Source: Ricordea florida (lineage: Eukaryota > Cnidaria > Anthozoa > Corallimorpharia > Ricordeidae). Taken from it: a DNA stretch of 64,000 nt. Below the pieces are notes generated by a model, which saw nothing but the letters and a program-made list of their open reading frames with translations, was not told the origin of the DNA and did not search any database. Every line of letters starts with the position of its first letter. Position 1 is the stretch's first letter. The position numbers and the translations under genes are program-made. Shown piece after piece: positions 16,433 to 53,300 of this stretch. Location of the stretch: the NCBI GenBank assembly GCA_949710005.1, contig OX453287.1:7110622-7174621 (forward strand), read 5' to 3'.

Positions 16433-16720
16433 TTTAATGGCCTTGCTCCCACGAATCTCCTATAGCTCAGTGGTAGAGCGTCCGAACTAGTAATCGGAAG
16501 GTCGTCGGTTCAACCCTGCTCCCACGAGTCTCCTATAGCTCAGTGGTAGAGCGTCCGAACTAGTAATCGGAAGGTCGTCGGTTCAACCCTGTTCCCACGA
16601 GTGTCCTCATAGCTCAGTGGTAGAGCGTCTGATCTAACAATATGAAGGTCGTAGGTTTGACTGCTATTGGAAGAACTCGGACTTTCTTTTCCGAGTTTGC
16701 CTGTGACCTGGTGTTGAATA
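16433..16720 (+). mobile_element. SINE with three tandem tRNA-like heads
   Basis: The unit TCTCCTATAGCTCAGTGGTA, then GAGCGTCCGAACTAGTAATC and a GGTTCAACCC B box, begins at about 16456, 16529 and 16602, exactly 73 bp apart. The D-arm GCTC/GAGC pairs. The anticodon loop CTAGTAA resembles tRNA-Thr(AGT), but the T-arm does not pair. The third unit runs into the SINE body (AAGAACTCGG...CCGAGTTTGCC). The element is preceded by TAGTTTAATGGCCTTGCTCC, also found at 40782. Confidence 0.8.
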
Positions 16721-17639: not shown

Positions 17640-18322
17640 GTTTTCACTTTCAGCCTGTAAGTTCATTTCGGGTCTATAAACTACTCAGTTCTTTATCTGT
17701 CTGTAAGGCTACTGATATCGCTAAAATATCAGCCAAAGTTTTGAAGTGGACTGCACCAGTTGTTTCTGAATCACTAATGCAGATTTTGAACAGGTCGATT
17801 GCCTCGCATGTTTGTCCAACTGAATGGAAAGTGGCTCGAGCAAACGCCCTTCATAAGCTCTAGAAAGGTCCGCGTAACGTGTTAGACAATTATCGGCCAA
17901 TTTCAATTCTTCCAGCAGTAAGCAAAGTTTTCGAAAGGATATTATATAAGCAACTGGTTGAATATTTAGACGCTGAGAATTTGTCATCAGAGCATCACTG
18001 AATGTGGCTTTAGATGCTCCCACTCCACTGTTTCGGCTTTCCTTGACTGTTCAAACGAATGGTATTGCAACATGGATCGCGGCCTTTATAATCTAGTAAT
18101 TTTTCTTGTCCTACAAATGGTCTTCGATACGGTAAATCACGTGCTCTTGCTTGGTAAACTTGAGGCTTGTGGTATTAGAGAGAATGCACTTAATCTTCTT
18201 GCTTTCTACCTAGCTTATCGGAAGCAAACATGCCAGGTGAATGATAAACAGTCTGGTCTGAGAACAATATCTTGTGGCATCCCTCAGGGTTCAATTCTGG
18301 GCCCACTTTTCTTTTTGGTATA
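17640..18322 (+). mobile_element. Non-LTR retrotransposon, reverse transcriptase part 1 (broken)
   Basis: The translation shows reverse transcriptase blocks in order: KATDIAKISAKVLKWTAPV, CPTEWKVARANALHKL, DNYRPISILPAVSKVFERIL, FDTVNHVLLLGKLEACGIR, and the palm motif CGIPQGSILGPLFFLV. Several internal stops and a missing Q/GF block show it is dead. This is a CR1/L2/Jockey-type LINE. The frame breaks exactly at 18323 and resumes at 18737 (YINHLPN). Confidence 0.88.
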
Positions 18323-20394: not shown

Positions 20395-20507
20395 TTGTGA
20401 GGTTTGGGATTCATTAGCAAGTGTATTAACCGAAAGGCTTCAGAAACGCCATAGCAGATGCGCTAGGGTAATCATGCGTTGCAAAAATGAGGCTGGACAG
20501 TCTGTCT
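20395..20507 (+). mobile_element. First LINE, continuation after the inserted LINE
   Basis: Reads [20 protein letters not shown] then [15 protein letters not shown], the region following FDYC in this LINE family. It then runs into the ATCC/ATCT microsatellite. Confidence 0.82.
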
Positions 20508-20607
20508 ATCCATCCATCCATCCATCCATCCATCCATCCATCCATCCATCCATCCATCCATCCATCCATCCATCCATCCATCCATCCATCCATCCATCCA
20601 TCCATCC

Positions 20608-20665
<58 letters not shown>

Positions 20666-20684
20666 ATCCATCTATCTATATCTA

Positions 20685-20749
<65 letters not shown>

Positions 20750-20809
20750 CTCTCTCTATCTATCACTCAATCTATCTCTCTATCTATCTATCTATCTATC
20801 TATCTATAC

Positions 20810-20841
<32 letters not shown>

Positions 20842-21174
20842 CTATCTATCTATCTATCTCTCTCTCTATCTATCAATCTATCTCTCTATCTATCTCTCTA
20901 TCTATCTATCTATCTATCTATCTATATCCATCTATCTATATCTATCTATCTATCTATCTATCTATCTCTCTCTCTATCTACCTATCTCTCTCGCTATCTA
21001 TCAATCAATCTATCTCTCTCTATCTATCTATCTATCTATCTATCTCTATCTATCTATCAATCAATCTATCTCTCTATCTATCTATCTATCTATCTATCTA
21101 GCTATCTGTCTGTCTGTCTATTTCTATCTATCTATCTATCTATATCTATCTATCTATCTATATCTATCTATCTA

Positions 21175-21205
<31 letters not shown>

Positions 21206-21338
21206 CTATCCATCTATCTATCTATCTATCTATCTATCTCCATCTATCTATCTATCTATCTAACTATATATCTCTATCTATCTATCTCTCTATCTATCAA
21301 TCAATCTATCTATGTCTCTATCTATCAATCAATCTATC
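20508..21338. repeat. ATCC/ATCT tetranucleotide microsatellite, about 830 bp
   Basis: Starts as a pure CATC run, changes to TATC, then alternates with TC dinucleotide, TGTC and TATATC variants and occasional CAATCAATC. The long open frames here (repeating YLSI or HPSI) are artefacts of the repeat. It replaces roughly 35-40 codons expected in the LINE between CKNEAGQS and [13 protein letters not shown]. Confidence 0.97.
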
Positions 21339-21720
21339 TTAACGGCTTGGCACCTCCATACCTTACCGAAATGTTCACTTTTAATAACGCCTTAAACAAT
21401 TACGGTCTGAGATCTTCTAATTACGACCTAGAACTGCCCAAATGCAGAACAAATTACTATAAGAATAGTTTTGCTTTCAGTGGCGTCAAGGTCTGGAATG
21501 CTCTCCCTCGCTACCTCAAGGAAGAGAGGTCTTTGGAAAAGTTTAAAAGAGGCTTACTACCGGCACTTGTAAAGTAATTAGTTAAAGATCGCCTTGTAAA
21601 TTGTTAAGTTTAAGTACATATTTTTAGTATTGTATTAATTAGTTAGTTCACGGATTTTATGGAAACCAAATTTAAACCTGTATGTTTAATTTGATAAGAT
21701 TTCGTGTATAAATAAAAGAT
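21339..21720 (+). mobile_element. First LINE, C-terminus and 3' UTR
   Basis: Encodes [36 protein letters not shown] and [21 protein letters not shown], a conserved LINE C-terminal block, and stops at 21577. A short 3' UTR ends in AATAAAAGATTCCATCGATC, which merges into an ATCC/ATCT tail. Confidence 0.85.
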
Positions 21721-22414: not shown

Positions 22415-22489
22415 TTAGTGTTATGAGTTAGTTGGCAGCCCGTGTAACAAAAACTAATCAAGTCGCCGTTTTCTATTTTTTACAATTAG

Positions 22490-23149
22490 TTTACTTCCAA
22501 TTCTGCGAGTTTCTCGCACGTCCAGTTGCTGTATTCCCGTTTAATAAGGAAACGGCCGCCAATGATGTGTCACCATATAAGGGCAAAGGTCAACGAGTGG
22601 GAACTAGTTATGGTCCCGGCATTCATGGCGAACCTGGTGGATCCATTGAAGTCCATGGCAACGCGAATTCGTATATCGAGTTGGACAGAGGAAATCTGGA
22701 CACTAGGAAATCAATAACTATCTTGGTGAGTGTTTATCCAACGCAGGACCCGGTGCGCAATGCCCCCATAGTCAACTACAAGAAGAACGGGCACGGTGTA
22801 CAGATTTTGGTGCGTAGGGATTCGGCAATCTGGGCCCGAATTAACAAACGCAACGAGCAGTTCACGTCACCGTTAGAAAGTGGGCGTGGATTACTGCGGA
22901 AAAATGAGTGGCACTACATCGGAGTCAGCTATAACTGGTCCACGGGAGTTGCTTACCTTTGGCACAACGGAAATAACGTCACTAGCAAGAAAATTGGGCA
23001 AACGGAAATTGCCACGCGGTTCGAGGTTCGCATTGGTGTACGAGAAGGCGATAACGCTTACTTCAGCGGCCGGGTCGCCTGTTTACAGTTCTATGACAAA
23101 GCTCTTACAAAGCGGCAAATAGAGAAGGCAAGGATAGCGTGCAAACCCT
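22490..23149 (+). CDS. Polycystin exon: LamG-like domain
   Basis: Follows acceptor TTTTACAATTAG, starts in phase 1 without an ATG and ends CCCT|GTGAGT in phase 1. It encodes a concanavalin-like/LamG fold: SYIELDRGNLDTRKSITILV, PIVNYKKNGHGVQILV, NEWHYIGVSYNWSTGVAYLW and FSGRVACLQFYDKALTKRQI, the usual closing strand-helix signature. It probably binds glycan or matrix protein. Confidence 0.9.
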
Positions 23150-26100
23150 GTGAGTAACAGCCAACGGCGTCACAAACGTTTGTTAAAATCAAGCGTGTTT
23201 AGAGGTTAAAGTGGCGTTTTTGTTCCTGCAGCGCTAGCAGAGAATATATTTAGGAGGACCGACCGAGAGCTGTCCCCACCGTGCCTATGATAACCAGATT
23301 GTGTACGTAGTACACGGCTATGTGGGAAAGGAGATGGGCGGGGGACGGAATTGTAGGCAACACTTTCTCTTGTTCGTATTCTGTAATTGTGAAATGATTT
23401 ATCACCACTTTGTGGTTATAAAATTTAGCACTGTTTGCTGATGTGAGACAAGTGCCCGAATACCCGTTTCCCGAAAAACCAGACAACTTACTGGGCCCGG
23501 AAAGCAGTTTCAATTACAACGGGAATTGCAATTTTTGTTGGTTTTTAAGTTTAAGCGAGGCCATTCTAAATTAGTATCACCCAACCAGTGGACTAATGCA
23601 AATGCCGCAATCTGATTGGCTACGCTACTGGAGTAATAGTCCTCGAGTAGCGAAATTCCTGACTCTTCTGCTTTATTCCCAAATAAATATTTCTTCAACT
23701 GGCATTTGCTAACTTTATTATTGCATTTTCTGTCCGACTAGTTGGGTGATACTAAAACAATTAGACCCTTCGCCCTCAAGAGCCGCGGGTCAATACACAA
23801 GAAATTGGGTAAATCAAACGAATTGATTAAGTAAGTTATAACACCGTAAGGTAAAAGGGAGGTGCTGACGTTTCGAGCGTTAGCCATTAGGCTGCGTCTC
23901 TCGGGCTATTGACCCGTAGCCCGCAAGTGCAACGGGTCAAATTGTTAATTAGTTTTGCACATTAGCCTGCTTTGTAATTCAAAAACTACACAAACATTCG
24001 GTAGAGTCCGATTCAAAATGGAGCTCCCGCTCTCTTCTCGGGACCTTCGAGAAACGGGTCTAAGAACCGTTGATCCATAATACTTTGAAACTTTGCTTTT
24101 TTTCTTAGTCTTTGAATTTTACTTAGTCACAAGAATCCAGACCAAGTTATTTTAGTCATCTTTTTGTGGTTGTAATCGTTTTTCTTTTTTTTTTTTTCTT
24201 TTTCTCAAGTTGCGCCTGTGGGCAGCATCGACGTTACAGTGCGGCATAAGAATAAATATATCGAGATATATGAAAATATCTCGATTGTTGTTCAAAATGA
24301 CAAGGGCGTGAAGTTCAGCGAGTATACATTTAATGTCGGAGATGGAAGTTCCATTATTGAAACGGACCAAGACATAATAAATCACCGATATTCAAAACAC
24401 GGTGTCTTCTCCATTGATGCTTCTATCTACAGTCGATGCAGAAACGAAACTTTACGTGTTGGTACCCACGTGACTGTTGAGAAGCCAGTGGAGTTGCTAG
24501 GTAACCTGACATTGACATGTGACGCTGTACCGTTTCCGGCGTTCTTATTGGCTGTACTGATATCGAACAGAGGCACCGACTTTGAGTGTCTTTGGAACTT
24601 TACTGATGGTTATGCCAACAAAACACGTTACCAAGACTTTGGAATGATGCATACACTTCGTCGAGCTTTCATTACCACAGGAAACTACTCCCTTCGCGTT
24701 CTTTGTGAAAATCGACTCAGCAGAGTCGAGGTTTCGACCACAGTGATTGTGCAAACACCCATTAAGGGCCTCTTTATCGATGCACTAACACCGAAACGGC
24801 ATTTAAGAGAATTTAAGGTAAGTTGGCGAGTGCAAAACGGAACAGACATTCGTTACTCGGCAAGTTTTGCAGGCAAAGAGCTTCAAGTATCTAAAAGCCC
24901 AGACGAGTTGCGCGGCTGGGCATGGGTACAACGTAGTCATCACGTGGCCCTAGGTGTATATGACGTCACCGTGACAGCAACCAATCGCGTGAGTGGAATC
25001 TTGCTCGCAACATCCAAGGTTCGTATAGAAAATGAAGTAGAATCGTTTCAACCTCGGTTGTTTTGGTCTGGTAGAGACATAGAAGTGAACGACACTGTAA
25101 TGCTTTTTATGAGTAACATTAATGAAGAAAACGGGGCCAGACCCATTTATAAAATCGATTTGGGAGATGGAGGCAACATGCTTGAAACAAGGAATAAAAT
25201 GATTAATATCAGCTACGCAGTATACGGAAAGTTCTTGGTGAAAGTCAATGCATCCAATAACGTCTCCTCTTTCAACACCTCCATCTCGATTGAGGTCCAC
25301 AAACCAGTGTTGTTGATTGAAGGACTGAAGCTTTCTGTTGAACCGACGATCTTCTTGAATGCAACTAAAATAAACGTTACCGTGGAGCAAGGATCAGATG
25401 TCGTATGTAATGCAACATTCGATAGTGAAAGTCCCACAAGGCTGTTTGATCTCCGTGCACAGTCAATCTGGGACCCAGTCAACAATCCTGAGGTTACCAA
25501 GCTTTCTGTTGTTGGGTTCATAATTGAACATACGTACCCCAATATTGGTGCTTATATCGCGACTGTTTCTTGCCTAAACCGTCTTAGCAGACAGACAGCA
25601 ACAGTTGAAGCCATTGTGCAAATCCCTATTGCTGGAGCTCACCTGACTCAGAACCATCCAATTGAATTTGGTCGGCCATTCAACATAACTTTGGAAATGT
25701 CCTCAGGAACCAACGCAACGATTGAACTGAAATTCCAAGGGCACAAATTCCGACAACAAGTAGATGGAACATCGGCCTTTCAAATGGTTTCCCAAGAAAT
25801 TTATCAATCTGCGGGCCTTCATCAGTTCAACGTCACCCTGTGGAACCTCGTGACATCGCCAATTCATATTAAAGGTTACGTCCTTGTAGAGGTTCCTATA
25901 TCTGGACTCAACATCCACGTCATTAAAGGGTCACGTGGTATTGAAGTCAACGAGACTGTGCGCATTGCTATAGAGGTGCATAACGGGAGTAATCCTGAAT
26001 ACACATTTACCTTTGGTGATGGCAGCTCTTCTTTAACCACCAGAAATTCTACTGTGCAACACATGTTCCATTCTCACGGCATGCATATAGTGAAAGTTGC

Positions 26101-29100
26101 AGCAAGAAACAATGTGAGCCAGCAAATTCGTTCGCTGAACGTCTACGTTCTTAAGCCCGTTGTTTTATTAAAAGGCCTTCATGTCATGACGCAGCCCACG
26201 GCAGTAAACGATACGGCGGATATTTACCTGCATTTATCAGAAGGTTCTGACTTTGCGTGTCATTGGCAGTTCGGAGATGGAAAGAATACAACGTCCAACC
26301 ACACTCATTTGCAATACTATTCTGATGGATTTACGACAGACAAGCGACCTTTTCAAAATCTGATATTTAATGGCCAGCATAGATACAACCCTGAAGGATT
26401 GTTTAGAATCTTGGTTACTTGTCAGAATCGCCTTAGCACGGTGACGGCAACGGCAATAATTGTCATTCAACGATTGATCGAAGGACTTCAAATCCGTCGC
26501 GTTCCTGTCCAGGTCGTGGGCCAAAAATTTGAAGTTTCGTGGAGTATTTCAAGGGGTACGAACGTCACATTCAATGCTTCCTTTCCTGGGGCAAATATAA
26601 CTTCTAGGATGTCTTCATACGTGGTTGGTTTCCTTCGTGTTATACTGAGCAGTCCGGGTGAATATGTCTTTTCTGTTGATGCATACAACTTGGTGAGTCC
26701 AACACAGACTGCATTAGCAGTAATCGTTGCCGAAGTCCCTGTGTCGAACTTGCGTGTTAACGTTACCTACGAATCACAAGATCTAGAAATCAACGAGATT
26801 GTTACTTTCTCCGCTTCTCTTAGCACTGGGACCCTCCCTACGTTTCATTTTGATTTTGGAGACGGCAACAAAATCGCTAATGTCGTTGGAATTGCCCACC
26901 ACAAGTACTCTTTCAATGATGTTTACACGAAGGTGCCCGAGACGACCTACACAGTAAGAGTCAAGGCATTCAATAACGTTAGTTCTATAAACTCTACATT
27001 GAAGGTCACTGTATATAAACCAGTTCTTCCACTGCATAATGTGCGGCTGATGACGTTGCCTTCTAACGTGTCAGAGAATGCAACTATCACTCTAGCGATT
27101 GGTCAAGGGTCTGATTTCCACTGCTACTGTGATTTTGGCGATAAAAATATTTCCGAAGCGATCGCCATTTCGCGCCCTATTTTTCTTGGAGAAGACAGAA
27201 CTCCGATCGAAACATTTCGCAAATTGAATTATCCGATCCGAAAGGTTTACGGAAGACCATGGATTTACCGCTTACATATCGAGTGCAGAAATCGGTTGAA
27301 TAAGGTATCCAATGAGACGGCCATTGTGGTTCAAGAACCAATAGCAGGTCTCAACGTATCCAAGATTCCGCCGATCAGTTTTAACGAAAGTTTTGAGATT
27401 GCATGGGGTATAACCAATGGCACCGATGTCGAATTTGAAGTTGTCTTTGGAAATTTTACTTTTGAAGACGTTGGAAAAGGTCGGAATATTTTCGTTACAC
27501 CAGAAAATTATAAAGTTGATGGTACTTTTCGAGCAATCGTAACTGCTAAGAATTTGGTTTCTCGAGCGCATGTGCAGACAACCATCATCATTGAGAATCC
27601 TGTTTCCACGGTGAGCCTTATCGCCACTTCAGAACATCAAGGAGAGTTCCGTGGCGGGAGCGGTTCATTTAGAAATTATTTTCCCACAGATAACGACATT
27701 ATGTTTAAAGTCTTCGCCAAAGGTAGTAACCTGCTATATCAGTGGCTAACGGACGACGTAACCGTAAAGATTGACAGGGAGCCTTTCCTTCGACGTCGAT
27801 TTAACACAACTGGTATCCACAACGTGTCGGTGATAGTAATGAACAAAGTCAGCCGTGTGCAAGAAAATATCAGCGTCATTATTCACTGCCCAATCAAAGA
27901 TCCCGACCTACAAAGCAACAGTCCTCAAAAGCTCAAGAATCCAATCAAATTTGATCTCGTCGCCACTCACTTTGGCACAGACTCTTGTTTCTTTGTCGAC
28001 TTTGGAGACGGAAGTAATGCTACATTTGGACATCCGGGATATCACGGGAGACACGTGGTACCAAACTTTGTTGTTATATCGCCTGTTGAGAGCGTGCAGT
28101 TCAGTCATATTTACAGTGACATTGGAGAGTACAGAGTTACGTTAAACGCTTCAAATGTGGTATCTTTCATGACGCTTTATGTGGATGTGGAGCTGGTGTA
28201 TGCGTACTGCGCAAGTCCGGAAGTGATTATAGAAAACCTTGGTCTACATTCCAATACGGCGCCAAGGGTCAATCGTTCCAACCCATTCACTGTACATACT
28301 GAAATAAAGCTCGACTGCGAAAGAACAAGCAAAATTTTCTTTAAGTGGCGTGTGCTTTTGTTGGACTTCAGTAATTCGGACCGTAGTTACCATGACAACA
28401 TTGTGCACACTGAACGCGAATTAAACATACCGAGGAAACACCTTGATTATGGCGTTTATGAAGTACACTTCATCGCTCAGATGGCTTTGTCCAACACGGA
28501 TAAATACCGAAGTACAGCCATTGGCTATTTGCGAGTTGTCCCTTCACCTCTCATAGCAAAACTAGACGGCGGCAATCTGATAAGCAGGGGGTTTGGGAAA
28601 GAAATAATAGTAGATGCCTCGAAGTCTAAGGACCCGGATGTTGAGATCGAAGACGATCCTGGTAAGAAATTTCGCTTTACATCTAATTTAGAATAAATTG
28701 AATTCATTAAAGTAATTGGAGATTTGACCTTCAGTATTTACCCAATCTTTACCAATTGCGATTATCTTTGAAACGGGCTTCGAACAAATTACCTCGTGAA
28801 TACCGGTGCGACGCTCAACAATTGAGCAAAACCAGTCGTCTACGCTTGGAGGAGATCGTGATAGTGACTTTATATTTGACCGAGTTGGGGATGTTATTGA
28901 CAATTTAAATATGTACGAGATCATGTATTTGCGCTGCGGTTGGAAACGTAATAGGAGATCGGACCTTAGCTATGGCAATATCAACACAATTTTTAGCCAT
29001 CGGTATGTTTCAGATTTTAGCTCGTGGAGCGTTAGCCTCCAACGCAAACGTTCTTAGGGGTTCGTCACGCGTTCCTACGAACGTGGGGTAGGAACGCGTG

Positions 29101-31213
29101 ACGAACCCCTAAGAACGTTTGCGTGGGAGGCTAGTGGAGCTTTAGCTCAAGAGCTATTGTGATGGATGGGGCAATGGGGATGTCAGACGTAAATGATAGA
29201 ATTTTCAGAACCCAATCGTCTCAAGATCGTTAAAAGTTTCATTTTTTTGACGGTCAATCAAAATTTAGACTAGTAGTTTCTAATAGAAAGGGAAATGCTG
29301 CGAACGGCACTGTTTGAGCCTCAATCGGTAGGCTGTTTCTTTGAGCATCAATTGGCAAAGAGCAAGCTCTATCAGGCAAATACATGAGAGACAACGTGTC
29401 TGTATCTGGGATAATTCGTCTTTCAAATGCGTTTAAGTACATTTTACCTCCTTCAAAAAGAATTTGATCAACAATGGCGTCAGTCCAGCTTTCGATCGAT
29501 AATGTCTGGGCACATAGTAGCGCCGAAAATACTTACTTGTTCTGATTTCTTCAAGCGTGCACCAACAAGACACAAGACCGAGACCAACGAAGTCCCACGT
29601 GCGTTGTGTGCGTGCAGCACGTCACGTACATCCATGATCGATAACGCTGATCATACTGACTGTTTGCTGTCGAGGTGCTCACACACACAGTGACAGACAC
29701 AGGAGATACAGAATCGAGATTTTTCATGGCATATAGCACACAGGGTTCCCAAAAGCAAAGATTAGTGTTGCTGCTCGCCTATCGGCTCGCAGCAAATATG
29801 CCACGTGATCTTTGCATGTGCAACTCAAGTTTGGAAACGTAGCGAGACATGACACGCAGCCCTTTTTGCTCCACGAGCTCACCATAGGATGCCTTTGATT
29901 ACAATTTATGTTGCTGGAGGTGGTTTTATTTTACAAGTCAATTTGACTCACGTTAGTTTTCGCTTATGTTTCATTCCAAGGTTTGAAATTCACCTGGCTA
30001 TGTAGAACTATCTACACGCAGTTTCCCCCCGGGTATTACCCGGGGATAGACCTCAGAACCCCATACGATAAAACAGGACGGACCGGGAGACCCGATACCC
30101 CGCATTCCCTAGGGTGCTATGGCAACAGCAGTTTTATCTTTCCTGGTTATAACAGTTCACTGAAACTAAACACCACGCAAATGAAAGAAAATGAGACATA
30201 TGTGGTGTTTGTGATAGTTGAGAAAGGAGAACGTACAGCGTGGCAGTACCAAGTGATTGAAGTTGTACCAGGTGATCCACCAGTATCACGAATAAAGTGA
30301 GTAAAACCGTCAATTGAACAGTCCCTGTTTAACTCTCGGAATTTTGGCTATTAACTTAGGGACGGACCATTAGAAAAGTGATGGGGGGGTGGGGGGTGGG
30401 GAAAAAACAAAAAAAAATTCATGCAAGGGAAAATGCCAAGAAAAAAATTCATGCAGAAGGAAGGTTCCAATTGTGACTTTTTCACACGTAGTAAAAAAAA
30501 TTCGTGCATAGGGGTTCACCTGAAAAAAAAAATTCCTGCACAAGCAGTGAGCGAAAAAAAAAATTCGTGCAAGCTGAAAATTCCCCACCCCCCCCCCATC
30601 ACTTTTCTAATGGTCCCTCCCTTAGTAAAGCCAATGGTCTAAAAGGAGTGACATCTATTTGGCCAGACACCTTGGTTTTCTTTTTACCTCATGGTATGTA
30701 CTTCATAGCATGAGGTATAGCGATGGATGGATTTGTCTCTCCATTCCCGTTAGACAATTAATTTATGCATTAAATCTGCATTAAATGTGAATTAAACAGG
30801 TTCTCCCCTGTCTCCCCTACTAGGTTTGGTTTTGTCCACATATTTGGGGGGAGGGGGTGACACAAAGCGGCAGAACATGTTTACAAAAATGGCGTCTGTT
30901 GTGTCGAGACCGACGTAAAGATTGTCAAGACGGGTTTTCGTTCCTTTTGCTCCATCTTTGATCAAAATACACGAACAGGAAATGTGTGAATAAACGCTTT
31001 ATGGTCTGGGGAAAGGACAGCACTTCATGGAATAATTACCACATACCATGAGGTAGCTCGAAGGAGCCTATGATATTTTTGTTTGTTTGTTTGTTGTTTT
31101 TTTAAATGAATAACTTTATTTAATGACTGTCAACAGTATTTATGGTGAGACGGGACCTACATTTTATCGTCCTTATCCGAGAAGACTAGAAAGTCTAACC
31201 GTTTGAGAATGTC

Positions 31214-31244
<31 letters not shown>

Positions 31245-34200
31245 ATTTAAAGACCCTGAGTGTTGGTCCGGCTGGGATTTTGAACCCGCAACCTCCCGCA
31301 CGGTAGTCCAGTGCTCTACCAACTGAGCTAACTGGTCAGCGGTTGGCTATCATTAATGAATACATTACTTTTAAAAGAAAAATTTACGCTAACATTTAAT
31401 TAGCAATTAATGAATGAGGCTGAGTAGGATATGAAGATGTGGATAACACCCTTCCGGTTTGAAATTTCGTATCTCCAAGCGGCCATGTAATGTTCTGTTT
31501 ATTTTATAGACACTGATGAAATTTCCACATAAAACAACTTCGACAAATCTTCCTGGATGCTCTGCAAGCTCGGAAAAAATATCGACGTTAAATTTTGGCT
31601 GCTCATCGAGAAAGTCACCCGTAACCATACCGTCTTCGCACCTCGAAGACATTTTTTGAATGAAATTTCAAACGAACCGGCCACGTGCCTGAGCGGGAAG
31701 CTCTCTTGTAATTGGCTAATCATGTTGGTAACCATGGCGACACCAATATCCTCACACGTGAAAGATAAAAATAATATCTTCACTGCGCGCGATGAAGATA
31801 TGATTTTCTCGTCACTGGAAAAATCCTGGTATTTCATCGGTGTCTATATAATAAAGGGTCCTACCCCTTCTACCACTGTCCCCTTAATGTGCATATGTGT
31901 GGCTTTAACATACCATTACTACACTTCGATATTTAAAGACATAAACGTGTACCTTGGTTTACTTGGTATTTTCAAGAAACATTTGGTTAGATAACTGTTT
32001 AATGGGAATATCAAGATTCTCCTAGTTGTAACCACTTGTTTTGTGTCTGTTCTTTGCACAGCTGTAAGCAAAACTGTGAACACAAGATCTGCACTTCCAA
32101 GAGATTGTCCCTCTTTGCAAGCTGTTTTGACGGATGTTTTGGACGCATCTACTACAAATGGGAAGTGTACCAAAACATTGGTAACAGCACAGTAAAAAAT
32201 TGGTTCCCAAAAGAAGATATTTTGCAGTCAAGGCTCGTGAAGGACCCTAAAGGTCCCGTGTTCACGGTCCCTAAGGACGTTTTTAAAGGAGACAGCGAGT
32301 ACCTTATTCGGCTGTATGGGAGTCGATTGAGAGGGGTCAAGGGAAAGTCGGAGAGTGTCCTCATCACGAATGATGTCCCTAAAGGAGGCACCTGCTTTGG
32401 TTCACCGCAGATAGGTGAAGCACTGGTAACTAACTTTCATATATGGTGCAACGACTGGGAAGATGACGACATGCCTTTGAGTTATGAGTTTTACTACAGA
32501 AACGAAGAAGGAAAATTCGACCTGTTTTCTTACGGTTTGCACCATAATACAAATTCAGAGCTTCCGCTCGGAGATCCAACACACAACTACACGCTGGAAA
32601 TTTATATCAAGATCGTGGATTCCCTGAACGGAGAGGCAAACTACTCGTTGGTTTTACAGGTACTGTATTAGTGACAAAGAACTGAAGTAGTTGTCCCTTA
32701 ATTTCCGACAGCGATGTGAAGCCTTGACAAAACGCCGACACGAGGCATTTTAAAATTCCGACAAGCGACCTGGGACCCCCCCCCCCCCTCCCCCTGGCAG
32801 GGCCTCAATATCTGTTGCTTTTCATCTTTAAACATTATATGGTTTCATTTAAGCGCTTGTGATTTGCTATTAACTATCTATCAGAAAAGATCGGGAATAC
32901 GTTCAACAAGCAAACAACAAAATCGGTGATACTGTGCTAGTTGGTCTCTAGTAAAAGAACTTTACATTATGCCTACACTACAACGAAGGTACGTAATAGT
33001 GTAGGTGAATTTACAAGGTAACCTGGATCCAAGATGTTATAAGCATAAAAAGCTAATTGATGTGCCACGCCAGATACGAAAAACCATTAAAAAAAAACAC
33101 TCTTTAGATGTGGCCAAAAAATCTGTGGAAATGTATTCCTCATCTAATGCTGTGGCACCAGACCTTGAGGAAGACGTAGACAGAGCAGATTACAGATTAA
33201 AATAATGACGGTGAACCAAACGACTGACTGACGTAAGGTAAAGGCGCACACGAGCCAAAGGCCCACACGGCCGGAGCTTATCTCGGTTTCACTAGCCTGA
33301 GGCACCTGGGAGTATTATTACTCCCCCCTGGATGGGATGCTAGTCCATCGCAGGGTCACCCCCAGCATTATATCGCTGGTACCCATTTATACACCTGGGT
33401 GGAGAGAGACAGTGTGGAGTGAAGTTTCTTGTCTAAGGAAACAACAGAGTGCCAGCAGCAGGGCTCGAACTCCAAACCTCGTGCTCGGAAGTCCGACACG
33501 CTAACCACTACACTACTTTGCCTCCACTGACTGACGTAGATTATGATTAATATTTCAGGCTAAACTCTTAAATAGCTCTGTAGAGTCACTTGGCAATACC
33601 CGAGCCACTACATCTTGTCGTCAGAATAGCAACTACTGCGTCTCTCATTCATCAGAAATTCCATTATATATCTACTAGCGTTCTATCACAAATGCTGTTC
33701 TCTTATTGGCTACGCTACTCACCATCTTTCTGTGTTAGAAAGTGCGTAAAATGAGTAGCACAACAGCGGGCGGTTGTCAACAAAATCGCGGCCGCTTTTT
33801 CGCGTAGATTTAAATTAAAGAACTAGACTATTCGCTCTCGACGTCTATGCTACTACGCAATGAAGAGTGTTCGCTCACGTGACCAGCAGCCATATTGGTT
33901 TATAGAAACAAAATAAAACATTTACATAAAAATAGAGTTCAATTCCCCAAAGAATCTTTTTCTCCTCCAACATGGCCGCCGTGTCTTTGTTTTCTACTCC
34001 AACATGGCTGCTGTGCCGTCAAGTGAGCACACTCCATAGAAATCTCGAGTTTATTTAAGAAATAGAAAACATGTACCATGTTTCTATCGAGTTTTAGTAT
34101 AAATCTACTAGCGTTCTATCACAAATGCCGCGCTCTGATTGGCTACGCTACCCACTATCTGTTCTGTGATAGATAGTGAGTAGCGTAATGGCGGCCGCTT

Positions 34201-47300: not shown

Positions 47301-50300
47301 GTACGTTGACTGGAGATCGTTCCAACAGCGGCATTTGTGTCTTGAGAGATGAGAAACGGCTCACGTTTCAAAAAGGAAGCGCGAATTCGTTCATAATCTC
47401 TGTTGAACGGTGGCTTGGACAAATCCAATCGCTGAGGATTTGGCATGATAACTTTGGATTATCGCCTTCCTGGTTTTTGAAGCGCGTTTTACTTCGTGAT
47501 GTACAGACAGGTGAAGTGTGGGTGTTTATCTGTGAACGGTGGTTCGCGCTTGACGAGGACGATGGTGAAATTGTACGTGAGCTAACACCAGCGTGTGAAA
47601 AAGACCTGACAGCATTTTCAAGAATTTTTGGTTGTAAGTTATACAAAGACTTCACCGACGCACATTTGTGGTTCTCTGTGGCATTAAAACCATCGAGAAG
47701 TTCTTTCACGCGAGCACAGCGATTGTCGTGTTGTCTTTGTCTTCTTTGTACAGCGATGGTCGCCAGCGCTATGTTCTATGGACAGGGAGACCACGGTGAA
47801 TCAGACGACCTGGAACTGGGACCAATCACATTGAACTTGAGATCAGTGATGATTGGCTTACAAAGCAGCCTCGTAGTGATTCCTGTCAATCTTGTTGTCG
47901 TTACCCTTTTCAAAAGCGTAAAAGAAAAAGAGAACGAGAAGACCGAGAAAGACAAAGACGCACAAACGTTAAACGAAGAAATCTCCGATAATGAAAACTG
48001 GAAGCATGATGATTTGAAGGAAGGTGGAGGTTCGAAGCTGAAAGAACAGAGAACCGAAAACGGCGTTGTAGCTTTAGAGGACGTTGTTTGTGATCCTGTC
48101 GATGAACATATAGAAAAAGGAAAGTCAAACACGAAATCTGCAAAAGAAAAAGTTGCATTTTTTGGAAAAAGACGAGGCGCTCATTACAAGTATCTTGTCG
48201 ATTCAACGAACAGCATCGACGACCCACAAAGGTGTGAACAAACAGTATTATTTTCTTTTAAAATACTTATCCTTATTCTGCTCGGCTGAAATCCCCCCCG
48301 AATATTATCGCACTTGCTGGCTATAAAATGAGCTCGAAGTTGTTTACACCGTACTCAGCTACGTTTCGTGCATTATTTGGAGTCTTCCTTCATTCATACT
48401 AAAGCGATCTATTACTTATCGAGTTTTAAATAGCACTTTTTTTTCCAATAGGGCATGGTAACAGATAATGCAAACTGATTCGTCCTTATAAGAGGCCTTA
48501 GCGTGGTCTGTATTTTTCTTTCGGTCTCCACAGTCACTGACTCTGAAGGCTTTGCGTGTGTGTGTGTGTGTGTTGGCAACAATTGAAACAATTTTCATAT
48601 CTATGCTTTTAAAGCCTCATAATTAGTTCCTGGAGCTCTACAGCCATGAATGGCATAGTGGGAACGAATTTTACCCGCGGTTTCTAATGATACAGATGAA
48701 CGTAAAAACCCTGGAAAAATTGACCTACACGAACGAGGCAATGGAAAGAAAAAAAAATCAGCAACAACAATTGTTGGCCCGACGGTTTTAGAATATATGG
48801 ACCGACAAGCCGGGAAATAACATATATTACCGGTAATATTTTTTCTTTCATTCTTAGCTTTAAAACCAGTAAAGAAAAGCAAGAAGACAAAAAAATGATG
48901 AAGAAGAAGAAGAAGAATGGTCTCCTGCCTTATTGGTGTTTATATGTGGCTTGGTCCCTGTGTATACTGGCTTGCGTGACATCGGCTCTCTTCACTCTGT
49001 TCTATAGCATGATGTGGGGAAAGGCAAAGTCAGAACAATGGCTTGTTTCCATGCTGTTAACGTTTTCCCAAGACACGCTGATCACTCAGCCAGCGAAAGT
49101 TCTCTTCCTGTCGACGCTCTACGCCATTGTTATTAGAAAGAGCGACGAGGAAGAGGAGGCCGAAGAAACGAACGGGAACGCGGCAAAAGGTAAGAATCCA
49201 ACCTAGCTGGTAACCATGACATAAAGGCTGGTACGCATCTGTAAACACAAACAAACAAACACGACGTTAACGCGTTTAGTCAACAGAAACGTGACGTTAC
49301 AAAGGCAAACACACAAAGTCTTTTGTCCCAGTTCTTTTGCGCTGACCAAAAAAATCGCGGTCTATGGGAACGACAACTAGGCAAGCGCAGTAGCATCAAA
49401 GTTTGGCGCGATTTTGGCGCGAGGTCTGCGTTATAAAGATAGACCGTGACCAATTTCGTTTTTTTTTTAAACTCTCTTTCTTCGTGCTTCGTGCTTATTG
49501 CAGTTGCATTGCATCGTTCGAGAAGACACCACTATAAGTACAACACAAGGAAGTGTGCGCACCAATAAGATTGCATGGCAAAGAGTATTCAGTCTGCCTG
49601 GTTTCGTTGACAGATGAAAAGTAAAACAGCTCTGTACAGACGTTTTCGAAATAATCGTCACATGTACACTGCATGGTTTGATCCACAGATAAAAGCGTTG
49701 GAGCCGCAGTGAATAGTATAAAACAAACAGTGCAACAGTACAGTAGTGTTCAGTAGCTTTCAAAAGAATGGTCGCACTACATGGTTTGATCCACAGATGA
49801 AAAAGTTAGAACCACACTGTATAGTAAAACAAACAGTACCACAGTACAGTACTGTTCAGTAGCTTTACAAAGAATGGTCACACTACATGGTTTGGTCCAC
49901 AAATGAAAAAGTTAGAACCACACTGTATAGTAAAACAAACAGTACCACAGTACAGTACAGTACTGTTCAGTAGCTTTCCAAAGAATGGTCGCACTGCATA
50001 GTTTGATCCACATATGAAAAGGTTAGGACACTTTTGTGTTGCATTTAGGTTACGACGAAGAGTGGCTTCATTTAACCGACAATGAGGAGTCCGAAGTGTC
50101 CAGCAAATCATTAGAGGAACAGCTTGAGCTTTATGAACCGCCAGAGGAGGCCAAACTCAGCGCCTTGCGAGAGAACAAGGTCAGGGAGAAAGAACTAAGA
50201 AACAAGTTTGTCAAGGTTGGAGATTACACACTTGTGTTGACTGTGTTGCTTCTGGCGAGCTCTTCCATCCGGGACCCAGCTTCATACTCATTCAGAAACT

Positions 50301-53300
50301 CGCTGGAACAAGAGCTCATACACCCACGTATCGTCCCCTACCCGCAGGGTCTTAATAAAGTAAGTAAATTCAATGTCCAGTTCCCCAGCCTTACCCCCAG
50401 TGTCCTGGTTGTGTACCCTTGCCTATTCTATCTAACAACCAGCGTTACAAAACGGTTAAACCAATGGACTTGCAGTCCAGAGCCGGGTTGTTCGAAGCAG
50501 GGTTAAAGTAACCCAGGGTTTGTGCGAAATTTAATTGCTGATATGAGAGCTTAAAAAGCACATCCAGTATAATTCTTTTCGAATACAATTTGATGATTGT
50601 ATGCTCTGAATAAAATGGAGAAAGTTATCGGTGAAAACGGTTTTTAACAAGAGGAAAAGGAACCCAGTTAAAAATTCAACCCTAGGTTAGCGCTAATCAG
50701 CCTTCGAACAACCGGCCCCAGAGGACCCAAGCTCAATTCCTTCCCTTGAACTCGTTTGTAAATAGCCAACTCAACGATTCGCCTATAGTCAGTTGTGATC
50801 CTTAACCTTGTTATGTTTCATTTGAATCATTTCTTTTACTCATTTCCTCTGTCTCACAAGTATTAGTGCTTTACCTACCGTCGAGGGTGAATAAACAGTA
50901 TTTATTTATTTAACTACTTATTTTCCCTTCCCAGAGCTATTTTATGGGCCTAGAGGTGTCACTTTTTCTGCCGCTAACCTTTTTTCTTTATTGTTGTTTT
51001 TATTGCACCTTACCTGCCTTAGTCCATTGTCATTGTTATTGTCCTGGTTATTGTTATTGTTATTACATATATGCCATGGCCATTGATATTACCAATGCCC
51101 TTGCTCTTTTTGACGCTTTTTTCTTCTTATTGTTATCGCTATTGTTGTTGTTATTGTTATTTTTATTGTTATTGTTTTCTACTGTTGTTGTTATTATTCA
51201 TGAGTTATGTATTGGCCAAGGCCTCGATGAGGTCTAATTCGTTACATTGCCCAGTATTTTAGAAGTTCGGTTGAAAGGCGGTCTTAAAATGTTCAAGTAC
51301 TTTTTGTTATATGAAGGTAAGCAACATTCCCTTGCTTTGGAAATGGCTGGACTATTCTCTGATACCTGGTTTGTACGAAGACGGCTGGTACAACGGACAT
51401 GAAGTAACTAACCGAACTGGATTTACCAGGGGGAGACAGTCTATGCGCCTTGGACCGACACGTCTACGGCAAGTACGCATCACAAATGGTGAGTGTGAGG
51501 GCCCAATAACGTTTTTTGAAGAACGTTTCACAGACTTGCAAATTGTACATGGCTACTTACGATCGATACACATGCAGTTCCGAATACGATGAGTACGGTT
51601 GAAAGAGAAACAGACAGAAAAATACAATAAACAAACAGGAAAACGAAAACAATACAACTGTTAGATTAGGATTGCATTTCCACGTGAAATGCCCTCTTTT
51701 GAGGATTAAGTTTCACCTTTATACATACAGACTTGCAAATTGTACTGACATGGCTACATACGATCGATACACATGTAGTTCTGAATACGGTGAGTACGGT
51801 TGAAAGAGAAACAGACAGAAAAATACAATAAACAAACAGGAAAACGGACATGAAGTAACTAACCGAACTGGATTTACCAGGGGGAGACAGTCTATGCGCC
51901 TTGGACGGACACGTCTACGGCAAGTACGCGTCACAAATGGTTAGTGTGAGGGCCCAATAACGTTTTTTGAAGAACGTTTCACAGACTTGCAAATTGTACA
52001 TGGCTACTTACGATCGATACACATGCAGTTCCGAATACGATGAGTACGGTTGAAAGAGAAACAGACAGAAAAATACAATAAACAAACAGGAAAACGAAAA
52101 CAATACAACTGTTAGATTAGGATTGCATTTCCACGTGAAATGCCCTCTTTTGAGGATTAAGTTTCACCTTTATACATTCGACTCTCTCGGAATGTAGCTC
52201 GTGTTTTGGAAGTCATCATTATTAAACGGTACTGTTTATCAGGAAAAAAAGGTCTGGAAGTTTTTTTTGCGATAGTTTTTCACTCTAACAACAGTTGTTA
52301 TGATTCGACTTGATCTGTATCCTTCGATAACGTTATAATCTTGAGAAACTTTAATTTACCTTAACTCGTTCGTTAAACACGTCGATCGCTTCACACCTTA
52401 CCAATACAACTCGTAGACACGCCACCCGTGAAGCCTTATGGGTACACCTTGAACTGGTGCACAGTGAGTGTGCTTTGTTGATGATGAATGGTTTCAGTTT
52501 TTAGATTCATTTCTTGCTTTTCTTACTAAAAACAACGAGAACAAAATCTATTATCAGTGATTGACGAGTGGAGTAGAAAGTGGAGTAGCAAGGAGACATA
52601 TTAAAACAGATTGTCTAATTCTGAATGGATCTCCCAAGCTATTTATTGCTAAAAAGGATAATTTATGTGATTAGGGCAGACTACATTTTAATAATTAAAG
52701 AACATTTGTTGATTTTGTTTCCCATAAAATGTCACAGACAATAACACTGAAGGGGAAAATATAACAAAGTTCCGAGTAGAGGTGAAGAGAAGCCCTGAAG
52801 GTTGCCAGCGGATCAGTTCAGTTTTGGAACTGACTAAAATCCTTTATTTGGTCAACTAAATCGTGCTAGTGTAAATACTCAGGTGATTATACAAAATCGC
52901 GCTCTCTGATTGGTGCGCTATCTCGGATTATCAGCCGATAATCACCTCGTCGAACAAAATGGCTGCCAGTCGTTCGCGCGCTTTTGATGAAATAAAATGT
53001 TTTCGTGTTGTGCAATGCTTTTTCTTTTCCTTTTTTGAAATAATCACCTGTGTATTTATACTAAAACAATTATTCACCGATAATCACTGAGCCTGAGGCG
53101 AATAATTGTTTTTCAAATGGATGTTATATAGTGTAAATCAATTTTGGTCTGAAAAAAAAAAACGTTATTTGCTCCACTCAGCAGCTCTGACTTGAATTAT
53201 TAATGCTGACAGTTTCGTTGTGCTTCTCAGGGTCATGCGTTGTTCCAAAGCCAGCTAAGGATTTAATCTTTGAATGCAACTCACCTTACGAAGTGTCACT

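Follow-up and report, generated by a model that had tools for sequence, protein, structure and literature searches.

The ectodomain of polycystin-1 is usually pictured as a string of equivalent PKD beads. A giant exon of the corallimorpharian Ricordea florida raises the question whether the beads of such a string can be of several kinds arranged in a regular order, and where this order came from. The exon occupies positions 24210 to 28661 on the plus strand of a stretch of 64,000 nucleotides (assembly GCA_949710005.1, contig OX453287.1, positions 7,110,622 to 7,174,621), which was analysed as a whole and is called the window in the following; judged by the encoded domains, it is one exon of a gene of the polycystin-1 (PKD1/REJ) family. 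Its translation consists of 1483 residues and contains 14 PKD-type modules plus the beginning of a REJ domain. The first twelve modules belong to three types and follow each other as A-B-C four times, the architecture of the gene being (ABC)4-X-Y-REJ. We consider it likely that this is a stalk of typed modules, that the A-B-C unit is a cassette inherited within the gene family, and that it serves the stalk mechanism outlined below.

The period is best seen in a self-comparison of the translation that makes no use of module borders. Peaks occurred at lags of 285, 575, and 860 amino acids (27.5, 18.0, and 12.8 per mille), and the lag of one module, 90, reached only 6.4 per mille; in 50 shuffles, the mean maximum was 2.7 and the highest value 7.6 per mille. 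A sequence-only reading of the window had proposed three alternating types and a self dot-plot as a check, and the lags agree with its three-module period. With borders cut at the linkers, the core modules comprise 87 to 104 residues each, and type A has its GDG turns at 24338, 25163, 26015, and 26858; their spacings of 825, 852, and 843 nucleotides match the interval of about 820-855 nucleotides given before. Among all 5775 splits of the twelve modules into three groups of four, the grouping into A, B, and C has the top score, and it still ranks first if cysteines, GDG, NxVS/NRLS, GSD/GTN, and the linker are masked. Leave-one-out profiles assigned the own type to 12 of 12 modules, and perfectly periodic orders constitute 6 of the 34650 possible arrangements of twelve modules with four of each type. 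The fourfold repetition of A-B-C is thus borne out by lags, rank, and profiles. The interval originally assigned to it, 24210 to 28661, is that of the whole exon, of which the four blocks occupy only 24212 to 27613.

Type A is the canonical PKD beta-sandwich with a GDG turn and a KPV linker. The turn is present in all four A modules, and three of these exceed the Pfam cut-off for PKD (23.5 bits), namely A2 (25049-25327; 32.6 bits), A3 (25910-26179; 52.3 bits), and A4 (26753-27043; 37.8 bits), whereas A1 (24212-24505; 21.4 bits) is a divergent module without NNVS. Of the B modules, when scored alone, only B3 (26180-26488; 31.6 bits) passes; B1 (24506-24772) and B2 (25328-25639) reach 22.4 and 21.3 bits, and B4 (27044-27352) gives no match. 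Segmentation, leave-one-out profiles, and the cysteine alignment define all four B modules, together with the structural models for B3 and B4. None of the C modules attains the cut-off alone: C2 (25640-25909) scores 20.2, C4 (27353-27613) 14.6, and C1 (24773-25048) 12.5 bits, and for C3 (26489-26752) there is no match. Because the models contain a beta-sandwich of like strand order despite these scores, type C is, at the level of the models, a diverged PKD-like module from which the GDG turn has been lost and which carries a linker of its own. The junctions differ correspondingly in sequence, with KPV between A and B, QxPIxGL between B and C, and an EVPVSGL-like linker between C and A.

The motifs by which the types had first been told apart hold in part. 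GDG occurs in every A module but also in B3 and in y5, and the ending NNVSS is literal only in A2 and A4. SDFxC, the proposed beginning of type B, is literal in B3 and B4, whereas B1 has TDFEC and B2 SDVVC; moreover, B4 has NRLN instead of NRLS. The type C ending NLVS reads NRVS in C1 and NLVT in C2. The array ends with two further modules, neither of which fits A, B, or C well: x5 (27614-27904; the X module) resembles the penultimate modules of paralogous genes as well as B1, and y5 (27905-28231; the Y module), the last one before REJ, is of a GTD.C type also found in the paralogs.

In a likelihood tree of the 14 modules, A, B, and C each lie on one side of a branch (support 80/79, 41/63, and 89/88; for A, 74/69 with x5 and y5 included). 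As a clade, every single block was rejected (4 of 4; approximately unbiased (AU) test, p 0.0007-0.006). The modules cluster by type and not by neighbour, as had been predicted, with B grouping only weakly. After cutting the linkers and masking the cysteines, A (89/90) and C (93/92) remain grouped. In blastp, the exon compared with itself gave no off-diagonal match, and the DNA repeats inside the exon amount to six families, the longest of 39 nucleotides.

The search for relatives of the window covered the genome of 538 megabases in 48 contigs. The A-B-C block was found at five other loci: L020/L031 and L021 on contig 15, L015 and L016 on contig 4, and L017 on contig 8. All five have A-B-C in order, the cysteine pair of type B, and REJ matches downstream; they hold one or two blocks versus four in the window gene, one paralog being (ABC)2-X-Y-REJ and another ABC-X-Y-REJ. 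In all three loci compared in this respect (L020/L031, L021, and L015), X and Y modules, whose borders were placed by hand, precede REJ. With profiles made only of window sequences, the cyclic order was seen in 18 of the 22 neighbour pairs at other loci that could be typed with confidence; 6.7 were expected, and none of 20000 shuffles reached this number. When 30 modules of six loci are placed in one tree, every type is set apart by a single branch (A 89/88, B 98/92, C 100/99); type can be explained by 2 changes, the lowest number possible, while locus takes 18. The 18 paralog modules of this tree, from five loci, were chosen for showing A-B-C, with L014, L018, L022, and L023 left out, and this selection has to be counted among the points that weigh against the reading proposed here. 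Further such points are the off-period self-similarity peaks at lags 1042 (10.2 per mille) and 951 (7.9 per mille), and the B clade, which dissolves when neither linkers nor cysteines are considered. Support values in the trees are moderate, and the branches are long, with a median of about 2 changes per column in both the 14-module tree and the block tree described below. The cyclic order is violated by 4 of the 22 neighbour pairs: A-C occurs three times (twice in L014, once in L017) and B-B once (in L022). The module x5 is a better match to the window's B1 than to 3 of 5 paralog X modules. Finally, the second block of L020/L031 is split across two open frames about 2.8 kb apart, and the union of the two frames in one gene is deduced from order and strand.

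Three observations on further loci of the genome may be added. The array of a polycystin-like paralog (L014:1985-5689) starts A-C-A-C and has no cysteine-pair B among its typed modules; by its sequence, this array could represent a condition lacking B or one in which B has been lost. An open frame of 4939 residues on contig 8 near 22.086 Mb (L019/L036) has at least two PKD matches. Across the genome, 91 REJ matches were counted, many of them on contig 13, which had no entry among the PKD matches listed; as far as profile matches tell, this is a large REJ gene family.

A property that distinguishes type B is a pair of cysteines. Of the 11 cysteines in the 12 core modules, 10 fall in B modules, and eight of them occupy two aligned sites, such that all four B modules keep the pair, as the sequence-only reading had stated. 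The codons are located at 24587 and 24704 in B1, 25406 and 25571 in B2, 26258 and 26420 in B3, and 27122 and 27284 in B4, so that 39 to 55 residues separate the two cysteines. Blocks 3 and 4 were modelled with AlphaFold2 (predicted local distance difference test, pLDDT, 81 and 81; predicted template modelling score, pTM, 0.62 and 0.61). In both models, the cysteines sit in the third (C) and the sixth (F) strand of the B module: in B3, residues 117 and 171 belong to strands 115-120 and 163-172, and in B4, residues 124 and 178 belong to strands 122-127 and 170-179. In the PKD fold, the third and sixth strands are neighbours. The disulfide of the classical immunoglobulin domain joins strands B and F; in the two models, no cysteine of the pair lies in the second strand, which is a different pattern. 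A point against relying on these models is that the alignments supplied to AlphaFold2 consisted of only the four window blocks themselves, the same four in both cases. An indication from the sequences is given by the A and C modules: with anchors placed by hand, the equivalent sites of the seven readable modules (A1 was unreadable) are an aromatic residue and alanine in six and isoleucine/leucine in one. Joint replacement of this kind is to be expected of residues that touch each other. We conclude that the third and sixth strands of the B module are very likely joined by a cross-strand disulfide.

Alternatively, the B cysteines could bridge modules or chains, or stay free, instead of bonding within the module. 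The third cysteine in B1 (codon 24518) and in B4 (codon 27128) is compatible with this possibility, as is an extra N-terminal cysteine in several paralog B modules. On the other hand, the joint exchange of both conserved sites in six of the seven A and C modules that could be read is that of neighbours, and the location in the third and sixth strands of both models, whose adjacency is known from the PKD topology, also speaks for a bond within the module; we therefore regard the alternative as unlikely.

The cysteine pair was also followed to the other loci, where 51 modules were typed with cysteine-masked profiles as 27 A, 10 B, and 14 C. The pair is retained in 8 of the 10 B-typed modules; in seven of these it lies inside the segment, and in one, from L022, the first cysteine is just outside. 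The two exceptions are a Y module of L015 and an incomplete L022 module. The pattern for the F-strand cysteine matched two of the 27 A and one of the 14 C modules, and the pair was present in none of them; as the C-strand pattern also matches F-strand cysteines, B rows were counted by eye and the remaining A and C rows by pattern alone. One of these matches, an A row of L014, was flagged for both strands, and its cysteines lie elsewhere in its sequence; the other two had no C-strand flag.

How did four blocks come to lie in one exon? The sequence-only reading had answered that a trimodular block was duplicated to four copies inside a single giant exon. The blocks are indeed all located in one intronless exon, and order and linkers are kept, as this history would entail. 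However, the same block exists at five other loci, and a tree of blocks disfavours a single clade of the four window blocks (AU p 0.016, uncorrected and one of six clade questions). Block 1 of the window (W1) groups with block 1 of L020 (P1), a paralog on contig 15, with a support of 81/80. The saturated synonymous sites, in addition, give no sign of a recent block copy. Same-type modules are identical at 64 of 226 four-fold sites (0.283), compared with 0.259 expected by chance. With four-fold sites saturated and pairs of unlike type reaching no smaller fraction (0.311 of 454 sites), a dating by synonymous change was abandoned. We thus do not uphold the expansion within the exon and regard it as quite improbable. 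More probably, A-B-C is an inherited cassette of the PKD1/REJ family, which predates the window gene. Because the window clade is disfavoured and W1 groups with P1, part of the block duplication probably took place in an ancestor of several genes, and at least two block copies probably existed before the window gene and the contig-15 gene separated. A later partial expansion, giving W2 to W4, is possible in the window gene (W2-W4 as a clade: AU p 0.087). It has to be taken into account here that the block tree is poorly resolved and its bootstrap not settled: apart from W1 with P1, only the pair of L015 and L016 is well grouped (95/92), all other forks being weak or open.

That the exon encodes an ordinary PKD array of like modules, with three types produced by selective reading or linker convergence, is barely credible: all types share the beta-sandwich fold in the models and identity differs little (29.5 percent within types versus 25.6 percent between types), but the unsegmented lag profile, the first rank among 5775 splits with motifs masked, the 12 of 12 leave-one-out assignments, and the cyclic order at other loci, obtained with window-only profiles, contradict this view.

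What could an inherited cassette of three typed modules be good for? We infer that A-B-C would be the structural period of a linear, mechanical stalk belonging to a mechanosensory receptor-channel of the polycystin kind. In this model, the type-specific linkers would set the angle between neighbouring domains at each junction, the number of blocks would set the length of the stalk, and the disulfide-clamped B domain would limit the unfolding of each block under pull. A mechanical role is suggested by two findings from other systems: in humans, force makes PKD modules unfold and refold, so that the ectodomain is extensible (PMC3677617, PMC1934368), and a polycystin 1 gene of Nematostella is specific to hair cells (PMC8846589). 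Alternatively, the stalk could be adhesive and act in gamete recognition, like the REJ proteins of sea urchins.

If a polycystin stalk consists of three specialised beads, one of them clamped, stretch experiments and variant effects will have to be read by bead type and not by position alone. Moreover, with one, two, or four blocks per gene, the paralogs of this genome form a natural length series for relating stalk length to sensitivity. A much wider generalisation would be that A-B-C with a clamped middle has been the period of polycystin-1 stalks since an early animal ancestor, that copy number tunes stalk length and stretch in each paralog, and that the human array (15 being five times three) hides the same period; we consider this doubtful.

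Neither the protein type nor the giant exon is new, since coral polycystin-1 proteins with PKD, REJ, GPS, and PLAT domains (PMC4890752) and a giant exon of human PKD1 (PMC3206831) are known. As in the window gene, many PKD modules in tandem precede REJ, PLAT, and the polycystin channel in human polycystin-1, and this array is likewise largely contained in one giant exon, exon 15 holding at least p.Ala1124 to p.Gln1975 (PMC3206831). The human protein differs in its number of tandem modules, given as 15 or 16 by different counts (PMC1934368, PMC10487028), and in having a C-type lectin and an LDL-A motif before the array (PMC10487028), where the window gene has a Laminin-G (LamG) exon. A skeletal matrix protein of Acropora digitifera with a REJ domain combines WSC, PKD repeats, REJ, GPS, and PLAT in one multi-pass protein (PMC4890752), and the PKD1-like polycystin 1 of Nematostella, found in hair cells, has 3457 amino acids (PMC8846589). 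The accessible text of PMC1934368 and PMC10487028 contains no mention of a three-type period or a B-type cysteine pair for human polycystin-1, and that of PMC4890752 and PMC8846589 no mention of module types or a super-repeat for the coral and sea anemone proteins, which were compared by description. No report of typed modules or of a three-module period was found in the literature searched, mostly without subscription papers. A domain table of zebrafish pkd1a, considered as a test of the period, lists, in the part covered, eight successive PKD matches, mostly spaced at about 85 amino acids, and then single misses three modules apart (PMC5318412); it neither shows nor excludes a period.

With respect to fold, the model of B3-C3 superimposes on the SorCS2 ectodomain (6fg9; 4.5 Å over 175 residues), the matched stretch of which is presumably its PKD pair, and that of A3 on an archaeal surface-layer PKD domain (1l0q; 2.1 Å over 77 residues). 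Both proteins have another architecture, with sequence identities of 14 and 22 percent. A Foldseek match for the whole of block 3 was rejected as evidence of a specific relative: the list is led by many unrelated immunoglobulin-like and fibronectin type III strings, so that the match says only that the block is a string of beta-sandwiches. By sequence, the window protein (P0001) had a best E-value of 0.84 against solved structures and no match to viral contigs. The alignment of the blocks, searched against genome and viral contigs, gave three bacterial and two viral loci, matching mainly in the A module.

The exon is embedded in a gene whose domain set comprises LamG, PKD, REJ, PLAT, and the polycystin channel, all on the plus strand. 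It is enclosed by the open frame 24176-28696, and its borders are set by splice sites predicted from the sequence, CTCAAG/TTGCG at the acceptor and GATCCTGG/GTAAGA at the donor side, both of which match the consensus. The phase is compatible with that of the preceding exon, which carries Laminin_G_3 (3.6e-17) in the open frame 22432-23149, ends at 23149, and has the donor GTGAGT at 23150 in phase 1; the start given is that of the frame and not of the exon. The PKD profile PF00801 matches the giant exon in 10 stretches (3.7e-67). The REJ profile PF02010 extends over three consecutive open frames after the PKD repeats: its match within the giant exon (3.2e-19) begins at 28232 and runs to 28661 (74.2 bits, profile positions 2-117), and it continues in the frames 29947-30300 (120-208, 29.6 bits) and 32003-32671 (209-412). 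A weak GPS motif is split into halves in the frames 43522-44310 and 45198-45551, with 14.9 and 17.4 bits, both under the cut-off of 22.5. Further downstream, open frames encode the PLAT domain (47168-48289; 64.7 bits, 1.7e-17), the start of the polycystin domain (51275-51592; 2.8e-8), and, at 53191-55071, polycystin domain and cation channel (Polycystin_dom 1.4e-24, PKD_channel 1e-27).

Several other elements were noticed in the window. Just 3' of the giant exon, at 29033-29133, there is a near-perfect inverted repeat with arms of 46 nucleotides (98 percent complementary) and a spacer of 9 nucleotides. Upstream of the LamG exon lie a reverse transcriptase fragment (17970-18320; RVT_1, 2.6e-9) and a degenerate TCTA tetranucleotide array of about 216 copies with long plus-strand open frames (20501-21339). 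A 106-base satellite, seemingly one unit at two places, occupies 42229-42716 (4.6 copies) and 49667-50026 (3.3 copies). A tRNA-like unit of 73 bases forms a tandem array of about three copies on the plus strand at 16444-16657 and, in opposite orientation, one of about five copies at 46308-46667, after the GPS and before the PLAT frames of the gene. No tRNA was called in these arrays by ARAGORN (bacterial code); the copy at 46294-46366 on the minus strand passes the Rfam tRNA model with 35.5 bits.

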